Positions 4,924 to 23,225 of a DNA stretch of 24,602 bases are shown here, one piece after another (position 1 is the first letter of the stretch; each line of letters starts with the position of its first letter). A model generated the notes under the pieces. It had not been told where the DNA came from, searched no databases, and worked only from the letters and a program-made list of their open reading frames with translations. A program made the position numbers and the translations under genes. The stretch spans positions 1 through 24,602 of IMG/VR virus record IMGVR_UViG_3300047497_000015, one strand, 5' to 3'. This DNA comes from a virus.

Positions 4924-5544
4924 ATGGAAAACACGCAAGTTTTTGATATCGCGCGCCCCGTCGAGCTGCAGCTGCGCTCGGCCGAAGGACTGAAGACGGT
5001 GAAGGTTCGCTTTCCTTCCGATGAGGAATGGACCCAGCGGCAACGCCGCCGCAAGGTCATCATCAAGCAGCTCGGCCGCGGGGCCAGCGAAACCACCATC
5101 CCGGCCGGTGAGAAGGTCGACGAGGACCTGCTGAAGAAAATCCGCACGGACGAAGGTCCGGAGCTGGACGCCTTCGAGGCTCAGAAGATCGTCGAAGAAC
5201 TCAGCTCGGCCGACGTGGACGACGTGGAACCGGCGTCCGAAGGTTTCCGTGTTTCGCTCCGGGTTCCCGGCGGCGTCACGGCGATCGTGGCGTCGATCCC
5301 CTCCGCGAAGGACGTTTTCGACTACCGCCGCAGCTTCGCGCGCATCGTCGACATGCCCTTCGGCAAACAGGAACTCACGGTCAACCTGAACGCGGCCTCC
5401 ACCCTGTTCGAGAAGATCGTGAAAGGCACCGAAGGCTATGCGGGCGGCAAAGTCCCCATCGTTCACCAGACCGTCGCGGTGAAAGCCGTGCTCGAAGCGC
5501 TGGACGCGGGCCTCCACAGCGAGGACAAACCCGAAAGTTTTTAG
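4924..5544 (+). CDS. Tail assembly chaperone, short (unshifted) form
   Basis: This 206-residue protein follows the tail tube gene with an excellent ribosome site (GGAGGAAGAAGAGGAC) before ATG 4924. It is strongly acidic and lysine-rich, with long charged helices (residues 35-100) and no membrane segment. Siphophages encode tail assembly chaperones (lambda gpG/gpGT) here, between tube and tape measure, where they bind the tape measure during assembly. The stop codon TAG at 5542-5544 follows a run of five T (5538-5542). The -1 frame is open straight through to 5957, as expected of the G/GT arrangement. The chaperone identity is inferred from position and the frameshift layout. Confidence 0.75.
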   Translation: MENTQVFDIARPVELQLRSAEGLKTVKVRFPSDEEWTQRQRRRKVIIKQLGRGASETTIPAGEKVDEDLLKKIRTDEGPELDAFEAQKIVEELSSADVDDVEPASEGFRVSLRVPGGVTAIVASIPSAKDVFDYRRSFARIVDMPFGKQELTVNLNAASTLFEKIVKGTEGYAGGKVPIVHQTVAVKAVLEALDAGLHSEDKPESF

Positions 5545-5960
5545 ATAGCGGCGAATGGCCGGAAAAACCATCGCTGAGAGCGCTGGTCTACTGGTCATTC
5601 CGCCGCGGGGAACTTTGTTCCGGGGAGCGCGAATGTCCGGAGGCCGTCGAAGTGGGCTGCCTCGACTGCGGATATGAGTGGACCCCGGACGATATCGATA
5701 GTCCCGGCGCCTGCCCTTCGTGCGCCGCGCGGCGCTACCAGCGGCGGAGGTGTCCGGCCTGCCCGCTCCTGAAGATCGACGGGTGCGAAGGGACCCAGGC
5801 CGGCCAGCTCCTGCAGCGCGCCGTCGACCTGAAATGCGCGCTCAAGGCCGGGGTGGAGATCGGCCTCGAGGAGATCCCCGAGGATGAGTTCCGCGCCCTG
5901 CTGATCGTGGAGCAAGAGCGGGAGCGGTACGAGGCGGAATCGACGAAGAACCAGAGGTGA
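5541..5960 (+). CDS. Frameshift extension of the tail chaperone, or separate zinc-ribbon protein
   Basis: The -1 frame relative to the chaperone is open from upstream of 5541 to the TGA at 5958-5960, adding 139 residues (345 in total if fused). The entry is protein-like (SLRALVYWSFRRGELC). It is followed by paired cysteines CxxC-x14-CxxC (5658-5723) typical of a zinc ribbon, then another CPAC pair and a single Cys, and an acidic C-terminal helix. A possible independent start is GTG 5652, with GGAGG at 5639-5643, giving 102 residues. Both routes may operate. If shifted, tRNA-Phe in the P site would re-pair from TTT (5539-5541) to TTT (5538-5540) just before the stop. The metal-binding role is inferred from cysteine spacing. 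Confidence 0.68.
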   Translation, partial: LDSGEWPEKPSLRALVYWSFRRGELCSGERECPEAVEVGCLDCGYEWTPDDIDSPGACPSCAARRYQRRRCPACPLLKIDGCEGTQAGQLLQRAVDLKCALKAGVEIGLEEIPEDEFRALLIVEQERERYEAESTKNQR

Positions 5961-5963
5961 AAT

Positions 5964-6878
5964 GTGACAGACCCCCGCAGTCGCCGCTTCTTCCGGGTTG
6001 TGGAGCAGCCGAAACACATGCGCAAGACCTGCAATGTGTGCAAGACGCTGAAGTACCTGCCTGAATTCCGCTTCGATCAGGAACGGCGCGCCTATAACAA
6101 AACCTGCAAACAGTGCTGCGGGGTTGCCATAAGAAAACGAATGGAGAAAAAAGGCGTGAATATCCTGAAAGTCCCCGTAATTGCGTTGGCGCTGTTCGTG
6201 ACCCTCCACGCTCAGCAGTTTGAGGTTGCCGCGGTGCATCCGAACACCAGCGGAAGCCAAAACCTTTCGATCATGGCGCAACCCGGCGGAAGGCTGGTGG
6301 CTGAGAACGTCACGCTGCAGGTGCTGATCCGCGCGGCCTACAAAGTCAGCACGCTGCAGATATTCGGCGGGCCTTCCTGGCTCACGTCGGATCGCTTCAA
6401 CGTGACCGCAAAGACCGAGGCCGACTCCGGCGCGAAGACCGTGGGGGATATGGCGCCCATGATCCAAAGCCTGATCGAAGACCGCTTCAGCCTGAAAGCG
6501 CATCGGGACACCAGGGAACTGTTCGTGAACGCCCTGACGGCGGGAAAGAAGGGCCTGAAGATCGTCCCATCGGATGAAGGGGACGGCAAGCTCACCATGA
6601 CCCGTCGAAGGCTCGACGGCAACCGGGTGACCATGGACCAAATCGCGAAGGCGCTGTCCGATGTCACCGGCTCGCTGGTGGTGGATCAGTCCGGCTTCGA
6701 CGGCTATCTGGACATCCACATTCTCTGGCAGCCGGACACCGAAACCCCGAAAGAAGACAGCCCACCGCCCCTGTTCGACGTCCTGCTGGATCAGTTCGGC
6801 CTGGTGGTGAAAGCGAAACGCGCGCCGGTTCCCGTCGTGGTCATAGACAGCGTTGAGAAGCTTCGCGGCGAGAGCTGA
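5964..6878 (+). CDS. Zinc-ribbon segment joined in frame to a TIGR03435-like secreted protein
   Basis: The long frame gives 304 residues from GTG 5964, which has AGAGG six bases upstream. Residues 20-53 form a zinc ribbon, with Cys23/Cys26 and Cys48/Cys51 and the F-x5-R-x4-K-T-C spacing seen in endonuclease VII/HNH-associated ribbons. From residue 65 it becomes a different protein. MNILKVPVIALALFVTLHAQ is a classic signal peptide and QFEVAAVHPN is the hallmark opening of the TIGR03435 family, with the GGRLVAENVTLQVLIRAAY and GPSWLTSDRFNVTAK segments following. A second start, GTG 6156 with purine-rich sequence ahead, would produce the secreted 240-residue form. The function of TIGR03435 proteins is unknown. 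The 3' end overlaps the opposing BRCT gene by 38 bases. Confidence 0.8.
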   Translation: MTDPRSRRFFRVVEQPKHMRKTCNVCKTLKYLPEFRFDQERRAYNKTCKQCCGVAIRKRMEKKGVNILKVPVIALALFVTLHAQQFEVAAVHPNTSGSQNLSIMAQPGGRLVAENVTLQVLIRAAYKVSTLQIFGGPSWLTSDRFNVTAKTEADSGAKTVGDMAPMIQSLIEDRFSLKAHRDTRELFVNALTAGKKGLKIVPSDEGDGKLTMTRRRLDGNRVTMDQIAKALSDVTGSLVVDQSGFDGYLDIHILWQPDTETPKEDSPPPLFDVLLDQFGLVVKAKRAPVPVVVIDSVEKLRGES

Positions 6879-7176
6879 GTATGGCCAGTTCTTCAGCCCA
6901 ATGGCGTTCGCTTACGATTCCGATTGGATGCCGCTTCGCCAAGTCCGCCCCCTTCTGAATCCTGTCTCCCCAGTCAGAAGCAAGCCAGTCCGGGCCGGTT
7001 TGGGTCCCGATCACAAGGTAATCTATTCGAGGCGTGACTTTGGAGGTGCACCGGCCTCCCCGTGCGTTTATCAAAGCCTCGCACTGTTTGCGCGTGCCAC
7101 GCGCGAAGTTCCCAGCGAGTACGAAAAGACTGCCGACGAATACAATCGGCGGCGGCGGATCAGTCAGAAAGTCCAT
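6841..7176 (-). CDS. Small BRCT-domain protein
   Basis: On the minus strand, starting at ATG 7176 (MDFLTDPPPPIVFVGSLFVL), this gives 111 residues. An upstream in-frame start at 7305 would run into the neighbouring gene and is less likely. Nearly the whole protein is one BRCT domain. It has FVGSLFVLAGNFARGTRKQC (beta1 and alpha1), INARGGRC, then PRIDYLVIGTQ (the beta3 DYLV motif), a conserved DW(x)SDWGDRIQKGADL stretch, and PIGIVSERHWAEEL with the conserved Trp. BRCT domains bind DNA ends or phosphoproteins and occur in NAD-dependent ligase and RFC, but also as free-standing bacterial proteins. It lies 13 bases downstream of the zinc-ribbon membrane gene, as a two-gene minus-strand unit facing the phage late operon. 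Confidence 0.82.
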   Translation of the reverse strand: MDFLTDPPPPIVFVGSLFVLAGNFARGTRKQCEALINARGGRCTSKVTPRIDYLVIGTQTGPDWLASDWGDRIQKGADLAKRHPIGIVSERHWAEELAILSSRREASQRCL

Positions 7177-7189
7177 GAGGTTTCCCGGC

Positions 7190-7699
7190 TTACTTAGCCA
7201 ACAGCTCCGCGTAGAATTCGCGTTCCTTCTGAAGGCCGTCGATTGTAAGTCTCTGAAGTCGCTCCTCAGGGATGCGCGGGGCAACGGTGGATATGTCGGC
7301 GTCAACCTCTGCTATCCGCTTCCGAGCAAGGGCGCGGATGCGTGGTGGGGAAAGATGACTAACTTGATCTTCCGCCGCGTTCCAGCGGGCGACGGACCTT
7401 TGGGACATCGTTCTCATGTAAGCGACCTGAACCGGGTCCCCGTTCTCAACGAATCCGTTCACCGGTTTGTCGGGATTCGACCCGCTTCGACCGAACAGCA
7501 CCAACACCCCGAAGAAAAGGACGGCGATCGCGAAGGCAATCCCGAATCCTGAAGACTTCGCCGAAGCTCCGCACTTCCCGCAGAACTTGTTACCCGGCGG
7601 GTTGAAGGCGCGGCATTTACGGCACCACGTTCCTGTTGGCTCCGCCGGCGCGCTCACCGGCGGCGGCTCACTCTCATACGGCTGCGGAAGGCTACGCAT
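7190..7699 (-). CDS. Zinc-ribbon membrane protein of unknown function
   Basis: This 169-residue protein is on the minus strand, start ATG 7699, with a weak ribosome site. A proline-rich N-terminus is followed by a zinc ribbon (WCRKC at about 26-30 and FCGKCG at about 40-45). Then comes one strong membrane segment (FGIAFAIAVLFFGVLVLF, about residues 52-69) and a C-terminal charged helical domain ending in KEREFYAELLAK. The zinc-ribbon plus single-helix arrangement is common in bacterial proteins of unknown role. The N-terminal ribbon is probably cytoplasmic; topology is inferred. It is upstream of and probably co-transcribed with the BRCT gene. It is divergent from the tape measure gene, whose start is 66 bases away. 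Confidence 0.78.
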   Translation of the reverse strand: MRSLPQPYESEPPPVSAPAEPTGTWCRKCRAFNPPGNKFCGKCGASAKSSGFGIAFAIAVLFFGVLVLFGRSGSNPDKPVNGFVENGDPVQVAYMRTMSQRSVARWNAAEDQVSHLSPPRIRALARKRIAEVDADISTVAPRIPEERLQRLTIDGLQKEREFYAELLAK

Positions 7700-7764
7700 T
7701 TACCAAAACTTCGATCCCTGACCAGATAGTGGCCGGGAAGCGGAAAACTCTCACCGAAAATTCA

Positions 7765-10700
7765 ATGGCTTCCGAAAATACCCTCCAACTTGTAATCCAG
7801 GCCGACACCGGCGGGGCGAACAAGAACGTCGATCAGTTCAACCGCGGCCTCTCCAACATCGAGAAGACCGCCTCGCAGAGCGCGGCAGGCGCCGCCAAGG
7901 GAATCGACTCAATCACGGCAAGCATGTTGAAGGGAGTGGTCGCCGGCAACCTCCTGACGGACGCCATTCGGACGGCGGTTACCTGGGCGAAGGAATGGAC
8001 GGTCGGGGCCACGGAATACGCCGCCCACACAGAGAAAATCGGCCTCTCCATGGAGGCACTGGCGAAGGCTCACAACATCAGCACCAATGCGGCGAAGGCC
8101 GCAGTTGTGACCATCAAGCAGGTAGGCTTCGGCACTCAGGACGCCGTACACGCCGTCGACCGCCTCGTCATCGCCAACATCAGCCTGGAGAAAGCGCAAG
8201 GCCTCGCGAAGCTCGCCAAAGACGCCGCGGCTATCGAGAACATCACCCCCGGCGAAGCGCTGGAGAAGCTGCTGCTGGCCGTCGAGTCCGGGGCATCGCG
8301 CGGCCTTCGGTCGATGGGCCTGTTTCTCGACCTGAACAAGCTGGTGGAACGCCAGGAGAAGCTCACCGGCCGCACACTCAGCGAAACCGAAATCATCAAC
8401 CTTCGCCTGAACGCCGTGATGAAAGAAGGCGCGAAAGTTCAGGGCGCGGCGGCTGCAGGCGCGGGGACGGCCGAAGCGCAGTTTGCCGCACTGAGGCGCG
8501 AGACTGACGACCTTAAGGACGCCATCGGGAAAGACTTCCAGGACCAGTTCAAGGCCGTTGCCGGTTACCTCCGCGAAGTCATTGCCCTGGCGAAGAAGAA
8601 CAAAGACGCCTTCGTACTGCTGGGCGAAGCCGCGATTGCTTTGTCGGCCGCATTCGTCGCTGCCAACCTTGCGTTGAAGCTGGGAGCGATCGGCGGGGCC
8701 ATCGGGCGGATGCTTCCCCTGATCGCCGTATTCCGGAACGCAATCTTCGGCCTCATGAACGGCCTCACCGGCGCGCTCGTGGGGCTTGAAACGGCTGTTG
8801 CCGGGTTGCTCAGTGCCATTCCCCCGGTATTGGCCGGACTGGCAGTTTTCACCGGCTTGAATTACCTTTTCGGCGATAGGAAGCCGATCGACCAGTCTGC
8901 CGAGGCCATGAAGAAGCTGAACAATCAGCTTAAACAGACTCCGTCCTGGTGGATCGAACGCGGCTTCACGCCGCCCAAGGGTAAGCTCGACGGACTGCTG
9001 GACTTTGCAAAGACGGCAAAGCCGGCCGCGCCGCCCCCGAAGAAGGAACTGACTGACGACCAGATAGACGCCATCGTCGCCGCGCGCCGCGCTCAGAACG
9101 AGGCGAAGAAGAACGCCGATGAGGACCTCCTCGCCGCGCGTGCGCAGGTCGACAGCGCGTTGCATGAGGCAGCGAGGGCTCGGCTCGAAGATTCGATGCG
9201 AGTCATCGAATCCACGAAGGACCAGGCCGAAGCCCAAAAAGCCTACGCCGCCGTCGTGAAGGACACTCAGGCGGAGTTCGCCGCCGGCGCGGCCAAAATC
9301 TTCGAAGAAGAGAAGAAGCGCATCAACGACCTTTCGACGGTGCGCAATGAGAAGACGGGCGCCGTCTCCCACATTCAGCTCGCTCCGGAAACGCTGGCTG
9401 CCGAATACCGTGCCACGAACGAGAAGCTGCTCGCGTTCCAGCTTCAGTTTGAAGCCGAGAAGGCCACCCGAGAACAGGCCATGGTCAAAGCCGCGGATAA
9501 CCGCGCGAAGGAAGCCATAGAGCAAATCGCCGCGCATTTCCGCGAAATTGACGACCTTACCGGAGATCTCGCTGGCCTCGGCCTGCAGGCGAATAAAGAC
9601 GGCATCGAACAGCGCAAGAGCATGGAACTGGCACGGCTCTCGGAAGTGGATGCCTACACCGTTCAGGACAAAATCGCCCTGGAACGGCGGAAGACTGACA
9701 TCGAAGTTGCCGCGCTCCGCGCCCGCACTGCCATCGAGCTGCAGGAGATCGACCTCCGCACCGAGAAGGAAGTCGGCGCCGCCATCGAGGCCGGGAAAGA
9801 CAAGGAAGTCCAGGACCTGATTCGCGCCAAAGGCAAAGCGGAAAAGGACGCCCTCCAGAACGCCACCGGCAGTGAAATCGACCTCGCGGCCGTCAAACAG
9901 GCGGCGGAGGCGAAGAAGCTGGTGGAAGACCAGTACCGAAGCATCTTCGACACGCTCAAACAGGAAGCCGGAGGCGTATTCGACGCGCTGCTGCATAAGT
10001 CCACCAGCGTGTGGCAGGCGATCGGCAACACGTTCAAGAGCGCCATGCTCACGGCCATCAAAGAAGTGGTTTCGTCCCGTGTGGCGGCGATGCTCACAGA
10101 ACTGGTGACCGGGCAGAAAGTAGGCTTCGCGCGGAACGGTAACGGTGTCCTGGGCGGAGTGCTCGGGACGGTTCCCGTGTTCGCCGGCGCGGCCGGGATC
10201 GCAAGCGCGGCCGGCGCAACGGGCGGCGGAGCTTCCGTCCCGTCGATCGCCGCGGCCGCGGGTTTACCCGGCATTCTCGGGGCGGCCGGAATTCCCGGCC
10301 TCGGGCCCGGAGGAACGCCTCCGTTTCTCCCTTCCTCCGGAGGCGGCGCATTGGGTTCTGGCGGCGGAGTCGGGGGTGGCGCTGCAGCTGCCGGGGGCGG
10401 CAACCCGCTCGGTTCCGTGATCTCCGGCGCGGCCAGTTCGGGCGGCGGCTTCGGCAGCATCTTCACGAAGGCGGGTTTCTCGAAATCGTTGGCGAATCTG
10501 AAGTCCTTCGTCGGCCTCGATAAGGTTGTGGCCGGGTCCGGCCTCGGGGGCCAGCTCCACGCAATCGGCCACTCCAACGCCGCCGCGCTCGCCGGCGGAG
10601 TGCTCGGTCTTGACGGCCTGAAGCGGGGCGGATATCTCGGCATGGCCGAAGACACCGCCGGCGGCGCGCTCCTGGGCTACAAGTTCGGCGGCGGACCACT

Positions 10701-11271
10701 GGGCGCGGCGATCGGCGCCGGGATCGGCGCGGCCGCGGGCGCGATTCGCCTGATTTGGGAAGCTCCGGTCGCCGAAGCGAAACGCCTGGTCAAACAGATT
10801 TACGGCGTAAACATCGATACGAAGATGGCTCAGCAAATCGTCGACCTTGCCAAGCAAAAGTATTCCGGCCATGTGTCGATCGCCGTGCGCGACCCGGACA
10901 TCCGCAAAATGCTGGAGCTTTACGCCGCCGGTACCGGGCAGAAGGTCCCCATCTCCGCCGCAAGTCCGCACGCCGGGTCCCTGGTGGAACAGAACGGCAG
11001 CCTGTACCAGGCGTCGACCTACCTCTACGGCCAGGCCTACAACTACCAAAGCAACCTCCCCACGATCGGCGGCGGCGCTGCAGGGCAATGGCCTTCAGGT
11101 CCGATGTCCCTGCAGATCAATGTCGGCGGGCAGGGCGCGGGCCAGTTCGTGGCGGGCCAGGTGGTGACCCCGGACTTCGTGCAAGCGCAATGGAACGCGG
11201 CGAACAGCGCATCGAACGGCCGCACCCAGAATTCGGCCATGATGCAGCAGCCGGGATTGGTCATAGCCTGA
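7765..11271 (+). CDS. Tail tape measure protein
   Basis: I place the start at ATG 7765 (MASENTLQLVIQADTGGANK), giving 1168 residues. An earlier in-frame codon at 7636 lies inside the opposing gene and adds an atypical N-terminus. The order is an N-terminal region with a TMP-type helical repeat (Ala-rich, residues 1-270), then hydrophobic segments at about 280-370 (AAIALSAAFVAANLALKLGA and others). A long Glu/Lys/Ala coiled-coil region follows (about 435-730), then a Gly/Pro/Ala-rich stretch (about 793-900) and a C-terminal domain with KRLVKQIYGVNID. Tape measures set tail length and pass through the membrane during DNA entry. Size, helical content and position after the chaperone make this call firm. 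The stop overlaps the next ATG (TGATG at 11269-11273). Confidence 0.93.
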   Translation: MASENTLQLVIQADTGGANKNVDQFNRGLSNIEKTASQSAAGAAKGIDSITASMLKGVVAGNLLTDAIRTAVTWAKEWTVGATEYAAHTEKIGLSMEALAKAHNISTNAAKAAVVTIKQVGFGTQDAVHAVDRLVIANISLEKAQGLAKLAKDAAAIENITPGEALEKLLLAVESGASRGLRSMGLFLDLNKLVERQEKLTGRTLSETEIINLRLNAVMKEGAKVQGAAAAGAGTAEAQFAALRRETDDLKDAIGKDFQDQFKAVAGYLREVIALAKKNKDAFVLLGEAAIALSAAFVAANLALKLGAIGGAIGRMLPLIAVFRNAIFGLMNGLTGALVGLETAVAGLLSAIPPVLAGLAVFTGLNYLFGDRKPIDQSAEAMKKLNNQLKQTPSWWIERGFTPPKGKLDGLLDFAKTAKPAAPPPKKELTDDQIDAIVAARRAQNEAKKNADEDLLAARAQVDSALHEAARARLEDSMRVIESTKDQAEAQKAYAAVVKDTQAEFAAGAAKIFEEEKKRINDLSTVRNEKTGAVSHIQLAPETLAAEYRATNEKLLAFQLQFEAEKATREQAMVKAADNRAKEAIEQIAAHFREIDDLTGDLAGLGLQANKDGIEQRKSMELARLSEVDAYTVQDKIALERRKTDIEVAALRARTAIELQEIDLRTEKEVGAAIEAGKDKEVQDLIRAKGKAEKDALQNATGSEIDLAAVKQAAEAKKLVEDQYRSIFDTLKQEAGGVFDALLHKSTSVWQAIGNTFKSAMLTAIKEVVSSRVAAMLTELVTGQKVGFARNGNGVLGGVLGTVPVFAGAAGIASAAGATGGGASVPSIAAAAGLPGILGAAGIPGLGPGGTPPFLPSSGGGALGSGGGVGGGAAAAGGGNPLGSVISGAASSGGGFGSIFTKAGFSKSLANLKSFVGLDKVVAGSGLGGQLHAIGHSNAAALAGGVLGLDGLKRGGYLGMAEDTAGGALLGYKFGGGPLGAAIGAGIGAAAGAIRLIWEAPVAEAKRLVKQIYGVNIDTKMAQQIVDLAKQKYSGHVSIAVRDPDIRKMLELYAAGTGQKVPISAASPHAGSLVEQNGSLYQASTYLYGQAYNYQSNLPTIGGGAAGQWPSGPMSLQINVGGQGAGQFVAGQVVTPDFVQAQWNAANSASNGRTQNSAMMQQPGLVIA

Positions 11272-21522: not shown

Positions 21523-21819
21523 ATGGAGATGAGATTCACATGGGACCCCGCAAAGGCTGAGAAGAACCTTCGGCTCCATGGAATTTCGTTCGAGACGGCG
21601 AAGGAAATCTTCAGCGATCCGAACCACGTCACCCGCGAAAACTACTATATCGAAGATCAGGGCGAACAGCGTTACGGCATCATCGGGATGACGTTCGACC
21701 TGGTGCTGCTGCTGGCCGTGTACGTGGATCGCTCCGAACCCGACGCCGAGATCATCCATATCATCTCCGCACGAAAGGCCGACAACTATGAGCGTAGAGC
21801 ATACGAAGACCAGTTCTAA
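21523..21819 (+). CDS. brnT: BrnT family toxin
   Basis: This 98-residue protein matches the BrnT family, ribosome-independent RNases of type II toxin-antitoxin systems. It has MRFTWDPAKAEKNLRLHGIS at the start, SFETAKEIFSDP, an EDQGEQRYGIIGMT strand region, and the C-terminal IIHIISARKADNYERRAYE signature. The start may be ATG 21523 or ATG 21529 (MRFTWDP); the family usually begins with the shorter form. No ribosome site fits, consistent with a leaderless message. The end overlaps the antitoxin start by 32 bases, the normal brnT-brnA arrangement. In a prophage it may stabilise the element or act in defence. The fold and activity are family knowledge. Confidence 0.92.
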   Translation: MEMRFTWDPAKAEKNLRLHGISFETAKEIFSDPNHVTRENYYIEDQGEQRYGIIGMTFDLVLLLAVYVDRSEPDAEIIHIISARKADNYERRAYEDQF

Positions 21820-22093
21820 ACGGCTGAAGATCAGCGACGCAACCCGGAAGGCCTATGCCGATCGGGACAAGAGCCTCGACAGCAAAGACCCCGACTCCCC
21901 GACGATGCCTCCCGAGTTCTGGGAGGGCGCGGAAATCGGCAAGTACTACCGCCCCGTGAAAACCCAGATTTCGTTCCGGATCGATAACGAAATTCTCGAC
22001 TGGCTGAAGGCGAAAGGCGAGGGCCATCTCACCCGGATCAACGAAATTCTGCGGGAGCGGATGGCGGCGGAACTGGGGCCACAACAGCGTTGA
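21788..22093 (+). CDS. brnA: BrnA family antitoxin
   Basis: This 101-residue protein overlaps brnT by 32 bases. The N-terminal half is charged and probably the toxin-binding part, including PDSPTMPPEFWEGAE, which resembles the DxPxLxxExW segment common in BrnA. The C-terminal half (VKTQISFRIDNEILDWLKAK, then GHLTRINEILRERM) is a ribbon-helix-helix DNA-binding domain with the family's RINxxLR motif. It should neutralise BrnT and repress the shared promoter. Order, overlap and lengths are normal for the family, so the pair looks intact. Confidence 0.92.
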   Translation: MSVEHTKTSSKRLKISDATRKAYADRDKSLDSKDPDSPTMPPEFWEGAEIGKYYRPVKTQISFRIDNEILDWLKAKGEGHLTRINEILRERMAAELGPQQR

Positions 22094-22553: not shown

Positions 22554-23225
22554 ATGTCCCTCGATCTCTCCGGCCTTTCCCAGGCCGAAACGGACGCTTT
22601 GCGCGCCCTTCTCGGCAAACTGAACCCCAACGGCGAAGGGGAAGCGAAGCCCGCTGCAAAGAAGCCGCGGCGCAAATCCTCGGACAAGATCCTGTATATG
22701 ACCGAGGAGGAAATCACCCGGCTCTTCGCCGTCATCAAAAGCCCGCGGGACTATGCCATGTTCCGGGTTGCTTACCACCGCGGCCTCCGGGCCAGCGAGC
22801 TGGGGAAGCTGCAGGTGTCGGACTACCGGGCGAAAGAAGAACGGTTGCAGGTCCGGCGGCTTAAGGGAAGCCGATCAGGCGAGTTCCACCTGACGAACAA
22901 GGAAATGAAGGCGCTCCGGAGCTGGCTCAAAATCCGGGGTGACAAACCGGGTCCGCTGTTTCCGTCCCGCCGCGGGAAGGGAATCAGCCAGCAGATGCTC
23001 GACGTCCTCATGAAGCGGTACGGCGACCGCGCGGGAATCCCGGCCGAGAAACGCCACATGCATTCGCTGAAGCACAGTTGCGGGACGCATCTTCTCGCCC
23101 GCGGTCTGAACATCGAAGATGTACGTGACCATCTGGGACACGTAAATATTCAGAACACCCTCATCTACGCTCAGATCACGAACGTCCGGCGCGAGGAACG
23201 CGACCGCCGGCTTCGGGACTGGTAG
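22554..23225 (+). CDS. Short tyrosine recombinase / integrase
   Basis: This 223-residue protein consists mostly of a catalytic tyrosine recombinase domain. Visible active-site residues are Arg79 (HRGLRASELGKL), Lys104 (RRLKGSRSGEFHL), His170 (MHSLKHSCGTHLL), His196 (LGHVNIQNT) and Tyr205 (LIYAQI). The position normally occupied by the second catalytic arginine is Lys173. The first 45 residues are short, with a basic AAKKPRRKSS linker, so the usual SAM-like core-binding domain is missing. The ribosome site AGGA fits the ATG at 22554. It probably catalyses integration/excision or site inversion for this element. Its last 50 bases overlap the opposing ribbon-helix-helix gene. Confidence 0.9.
   Translation: MSLDLSGLSQAETDALRALLGKLNPNGEGEAKPAAKKPRRKSSDKILYMTEEEITRLFAVIKSPRDYAMFRVAYHRGLRASELGKLQVSDYRAKEERLQVRRLKGSRSGEFHLTNKEMKALRSWLKIRGDKPGPLFPSRRGKGISQQMLDVLMKRYGDRAGIPAEKRHMHSLKHSCGTHLLARGLNIEDVRDHLGHVNIQNTLIYAQITNVRREERDRRLRDW

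Follow-up and report, generated by a model that had tools for sequence, protein, structure and literature searches.

The HK97 gp15 gene is a moron that mediates superinfection exclusion (Cumby et al. 2012, as cited in PMC10884400). It lies between the frameshifted chaperone genes gp13/14 and the tape-measure gene gp16, the same position as that of the interval described here. A second late-operon moron, Tab of phage JBD26, is expressed from the prophage and blocks competing phages (PMC10884400), but is located between terminase genes. Prophage defence hotspots, known from a different phage lineage, provide a further parallel, as these consist of a fixed slot with swappable cargo of unrelated genes, defence genes among them. 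How morons enter phage genomes has been called mysterious (PMC4378225).

We have analysed a 24,602-base virus record (the window) in which genes of unusual type are found between the tail-assembly chaperone and the tape measure. Like gp15, these are probably accessory genes; gp15, however, is a plus-strand gene with a single 62-aa product, whereas the window carries minus-strand genes of other families. The HK97 gene is also a single case, while the lineage examined here has an open-ended set of occupants, and hence our results extend this one example to a recurrent slot. In contrast to the prophage defence hotspots, this slot is inside a tail operon; its cargo includes many toxin-antitoxins, and most cargo genes lie antisense to the late operon. 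No paper on this slot in this lineage was found in a literature search of partial coverage.

The interval between chaperone and tape measure

Two plus-strand genes form the left flank of the interval: o4924 (4924-5544), the G-type part of the chaperone, which is conserved in more than 70 relatives, and o5652 (5652-5960), the T-type extension and last structural gene before the interval, whose frame is open from 5112. This second frame remains open where the first one terminates, and a putative -1 slippery site, GTTTTTA (5537-5543, plus strand), was recognised by eye where the G-type gene ends; by inspection, relatives have CCCAAAC or AAATTTY at this position, just before the stop. The two genes look like a G/GT-type frameshift pair. 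As o4924 has no match among the PHROG families, the identification as a chaperone rests on position and the frameshift. The right flank is the tape-measure gene (7765-11271, plus strand), which has an ATG at 7765 and homologous starts in relatives.

Relatives were gathered with o4924 as the hook, and the gap between chaperone and tape measure was measured in 71 distinct relatives. Gap sizes were bimodal. The start of the tape measure overlapped the chaperone stop in 40 of the 71 (gap of -23 to -11 nt), for example ATGGCCGATAA, and in the other 31 the two genes were 266 to 3757 nt apart, with differing cargo. The interval in the window (5961-7764, no strand assigned) spans 1804 nt and is absent from those 40 relatives. 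Inserts of more than 250 nt were present at this position in 31/71 relatives versus 6/217 at three neighbouring structural junctions that had good sampling (Fisher p=3e-16). The junction from dec to o2899 was excluded from this control for having two length classes: 13 of 29 relatives are about 250 nt longer here, a uniform second class that perhaps reflects a small extra gene. At the junction from MCP to dec, length variation was seen in 0/29.

Comparisons of close relatives point in the same direction. L008, a sister phage, has 96% identity to the window as far as position 5967, and similarity resumes at 7715; between these points L008 has 354 nt of unrelated DNA with an apparently truncated minus-strand gene encoding a signal peptide. 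In L052, the insert (7943-8653) is bracketed by direct repeats, 87 nt long, of the tape-measure 5' end, and the site is empty in the closest relatives of this phage, L066 and L073. The insertion in L052 is a recent one, and with L066 and L073 this phage provides a recent before-and-after pair for studying the entry of morons into phage genomes. L026 has a similar repeat, 29 nt long. As judged from these comparisons, the interval is a swappable cargo slot, filled by related soil phages with different genes. The flanks are conserved and the cargo is variable and unrelated, as in prophage defence hotspots, and the insertions separate two genes that are direct neighbours in related phages, as is characteristic of morons. 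The slot is also a ready-made discovery site, with a short, readily recognisable junction into which cargo has been inserted in nearly half of the relatives examined.

Cargo carried by relatives

Occupants of the slot were identified by family searches and as long open reading frames; a codon-usage score trained on the structural genes missed the majority of the cargo, probably owing to its different codon use. Many of the minus-strand occupants resemble toxin-antitoxin genes. HicAB-type genes were detected by family search in L088, L089 and L108 and by sequence similarity in L097 and L099; the family searches also returned a HigBA-like pair (L083), a PIN gene with an AF2212-like antitoxin (VapBC-like; L027) and a PIN gene (L019). 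The remaining family-supported genes on this strand encode DUF4926 (L011, and L091 by similarity), an M48 peptidase (L020), a UvrD helicase (L022), the PADLOC candidate PDC-S02 (L026; E=2e-83), an AAA/nSTAND ATPase (L059), an ankyrin protein (L052) and, below the Pfam cut-off, a DnaJ-type zinc protein (L084). On the plus strand are RmrA, a PADLOC-listed defence protein (L040, 8735-9853; PADLOC E=5.6e-69), a restriction-like REase-ARP (L069) and a TIR-TPR protein of 1132 aa (L094, 8055-11453). Five further minus-strand genes had no Pfam match above cut-off: 202 aa in L024 (5071-5679), 211 aa in L057 (6867-7502), 286 aa in L010 (9089-9949), 295 aa in L013 (8950-9837) and 356 aa in L009 (8981-10051).

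Family-supported cargo was on the minus strand in 16 relatives and on the plus strand in 3 (two-sided binomial p=0.004), a count in which some occupants are homologous and not all are independent. The earlier note had been surprised by minus-strand genes among plus-strand structural genes; antisense orientation is a habit of the slot. Some of the occupants (ankyrin, TIGR03435, M48 peptidase) are not defence genes. Nevertheless, the cargo includes genes assigned by similarity to recognised defence systems (PDC-S02, RmrA, TIR-TPR and toxin-antitoxins), and it is often of a toxin-antitoxin or candidate defence type. The unnamed occupants, namely the gene pair of the window and the genes of L024, L057, L010, L013 and L009, form a ranked list of candidate new anti-phage systems, and the five genes from relatives are candidate defence or toxin genes of novel type.

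The slot genes of the window

Two or more cassettes occupy the slot of the window: on the plus strand a TIGR03435 gene, and on the minus strand a pair encoding a zinc-ribbon membrane protein and a BRCT protein. Both genes of the pair described in the earlier note were confirmed between the chaperone and the tape measure, with the flanks as it had claimed: the zinc-ribbon gene runs from 7699 to 7190 and the BRCT gene (6841-7176) follows 13 nt downstream. Rival plus-strand frames at 7034-7552 and 6853-7197 produced zero family matches. GC3 is 0.60 in the BRCT gene and 0.68 in the zinc-ribbon gene, whereas the large structural genes measured have 0.78-0.83; the pair is unlike its neighbours in base composition. 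A consensus scan of the slot genes found no sigma-70-like promoter, but this consensus may not be that of the host, and no terminator-like site around these genes rose above chance level.

The third cargo gene had been overlooked in the earlier note. It encodes a TIGR03435/DUF3738 secreted protein (6156-6878, plus strand; E=2.7e-50), has a GTG start with GGAG upstream and overlaps the BRCT gene tail to tail by 38 nt. An endonuclease-VII-like zinc-finger N-terminus of about 60 aa (5964-6155, plus strand; phrog_2255, E=3.5e-5) is in frame with this gene and may be what is left of an endonuclease once present in the slot. TIGR03435 is a mainly acidobacterial family, and its presence would fit soil Acidobacteria as the host; a search of a named-phage collection for TIGR03435 returned no match.

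The BRCT gene encodes a protein of 111 aa, with a likely start at ATG 7176 and not at TTG 7305 because homology starts at 7176. The domain call is sound. The protein scores 28.5 bits against PF00533 (cut-off, 21.3; E=1.8e-6), and an AlphaFold2 model built from a 25-sequence alignment (pLDDT 90.2, pTM 0.81) predicts a BRCT fold, with the BRCT domains of LigA (E 2.6e-5) and RFC1 (E 5.1e-5) as the nearest PDB folds in Foldseek. The suggestion of an NAD-ligase-like BRCT is borne out for the fold, which is predicted to be of LigA/RFC1 type, but does not extend to a ligase. Alignment to NAD-dependent DNA ligase is limited to the BRCT stretch (model positions 585-634 of 652); the adenylation, OB and HhH domains are absent, as are clamp-loader domains, and the Thr of the TG motif is replaced by Ala.

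The closest family is phrog_3989 (E=1.3e-20 against the profile; 34-47% identity to members), of which the window protein represents the BRCT half. A scan of viral contigs with the single protein found no relatives; a family alignment was needed and yielded 80 viral loci. In 83 of the 83 relatives examined (the 80 loci and three annotated phages), the BRCT domain is preceded by an N-terminal domain, about 95 residues long in phrog_3989 and termed helical by inspection alone, that is missing from the window protein, which begins at the linker. A TerB-like identity for this domain, proposed from its sequence pattern, gained no support from Pfam and PDB profile searches. Most family motifs are retained in the window protein, but A21 replaces the nearly invariant Thr of the TG motif; in RFC1, the matching Thr contacts the 5' phosphate. 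The C-terminal 13-residue tail is non-homologous and is read antisense to the TIGR03435 gene. The Thr loss and the antisense tail suggest that cassettes of separate origin have been joined here.

The zinc-ribbon gene (7190-7699, minus strand) precedes the BRCT gene by 13 nt and encodes 169 aa with a putative zinc ribbon, a single membrane helix and a C-terminus that is helical in a low-confidence model. The earlier description of a zinc ribbon with a membrane helix is upheld by a CxxC-x10-CxxC motif with all four cysteines and by one strong helix at residues 52-70 (mean Kyte-Doolittle, 2.69), but Pfam scores are below cut-off (DZR, 21.4 versus 27.3 bits; Zn_Ribbon_1, 17.6 versus 25 bits). The single-sequence model (pLDDT 68, pTM 0.37) was too weak for a fold search. 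The helical C-terminus was considered as the missing phrog_3989 N-domain and rejected (hhalign probability, 0.5%). No relatives were detected in a single-protein scan of viral contigs, no match in phage and plasmid searches, and short zinc-ribbon matches only in a scan of a bacterial genome collection; a weak match in L107 looks like chance. In the collections searched, the protein is apparently an orphan with no homologue beyond the zinc ribbon, subject to the use of short exact peptides or single-sequence tblastn in these searches, by which distant copies could be missed.

Explanations for the gene pair

That the BRCT and zinc-ribbon genes form a moron cassette, as the earlier note had proposed, is well supported by comparative sequence evidence: in a near-identical sister and across a total of 71 relatives, the slot is optional and its cargo mostly minus-strand. 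The cassette is an uncharacterised occupant of this slot, and its genes are probably carried as passengers to the benefit of the infected cell and not as parts for building the phage. Our preferred explanation, which we consider likely, is that the minus-strand pair is slot cargo that would be transcribed from the prophage, against a silent late operon, and would serve the fitness of the lysogen, most likely by resisting superinfection. An anti-phage role for the cassette is plausible.

It is less clear that the two genes act together. They may instead be two unrelated single-gene morons that are adjacent by chance, a version of the preferred explanation and compatible with it, to which we give rather less than an even chance. 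The exact pair was absent from viral contigs, phages, plasmids and the slots of relatives, so that a search for the same pair in other genomes produced no second copy, and neither protein matched PADLOC models at E up to 0.01. The idea of a defence pair advanced in the earlier note has, to this extent, not been borne out in the collections searched. The lack of any relative for the zinc-ribbon/helix protein and the third slot gene, which shows that cassettes accumulate, also favour independent arrival. Against this are the shared strand and tight spacing of the genes, and the finding that some BRCT-family loci (L149, L176, L182 and L144) have a closely adjacent predicted membrane gene, though the proteins are unlike the zinc-ribbon protein of the window.

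A second explanation is that the pair is cargo debris, consisting of bacterial gene fragments in an active insertion site, with the BRCT gene as the broken form of a helical-domain-BRCT gene. The absence of the N-terminal domain that all of the viral relatives examined possess, the loss of the conserved Thr, the antisense tail and the seemingly truncated minus-strand gene in the slot of the sister phage are as expected from decay. Both frames, however, are unbroken and have the operon-like spacing of 13 nt, and the BRCT protein has a high-confidence fold prediction and retains most family motifs. We regard debris as unlikely, but lacking both the N-domain and the Thr of the TG motif, the BRCT protein could be either a decaying or a repurposed fragment. 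A role for the genes in the phage's own biology, for example in the virion as minor proteins, in assembly or in late-gene regulation, would fit their location inside the tail operon but is highly improbable, as the slot is empty in 40/71 relatives and holds unrelated genes in others, and the genes are oriented against the late operon.

If the preferred explanation of slot cargo is correct and the two proteins do cooperate, a speculative working model can be suggested. The membrane protein would hold its zinc ribbon on the cytoplasmic side of the membrane, and the BRCT protein might sense DNA ends, as the BRCT domains of LigA and RFC1 do, near the sites where competing phages inject linear DNA. 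A membrane zinc ribbon with a lone DNA-end-recognising BRCT would then be a new type of two-gene prophage immunity module, sensing or seizing the injected linear DNA of competitors and carried in the cargo slot of a widespread soil phage lineage. We consider this specific proposal to be a long shot.

The genomic setting of the BRCT family is informative about expression. Among 54 distinct phrog_3989-type loci with sufficient upstream sequence, 41 are preceded on the same strand, at a distance of up to 1.6 kb, by a CI/S24/XRE repressor homologue. The family is usually part of the prophage immunity region, an indirect argument for expression in the lysogen. These proteins combine the helical N-domain with BRCT next to a CI repressor, whereas the copy in the window is the BRCT half only and lies in the tail operon. 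The phage is temperate, as indicated by a tyrosine integrase gene (22554-23225, plus strand; PF00589, E=4.2e-33) and a BrnT/BrnA toxin-antitoxin pair near the right end. The BrnT toxin and BrnA antitoxin genes (21523-22093, plus strand), just before the integrase, constitute a second accessory module of this phage.
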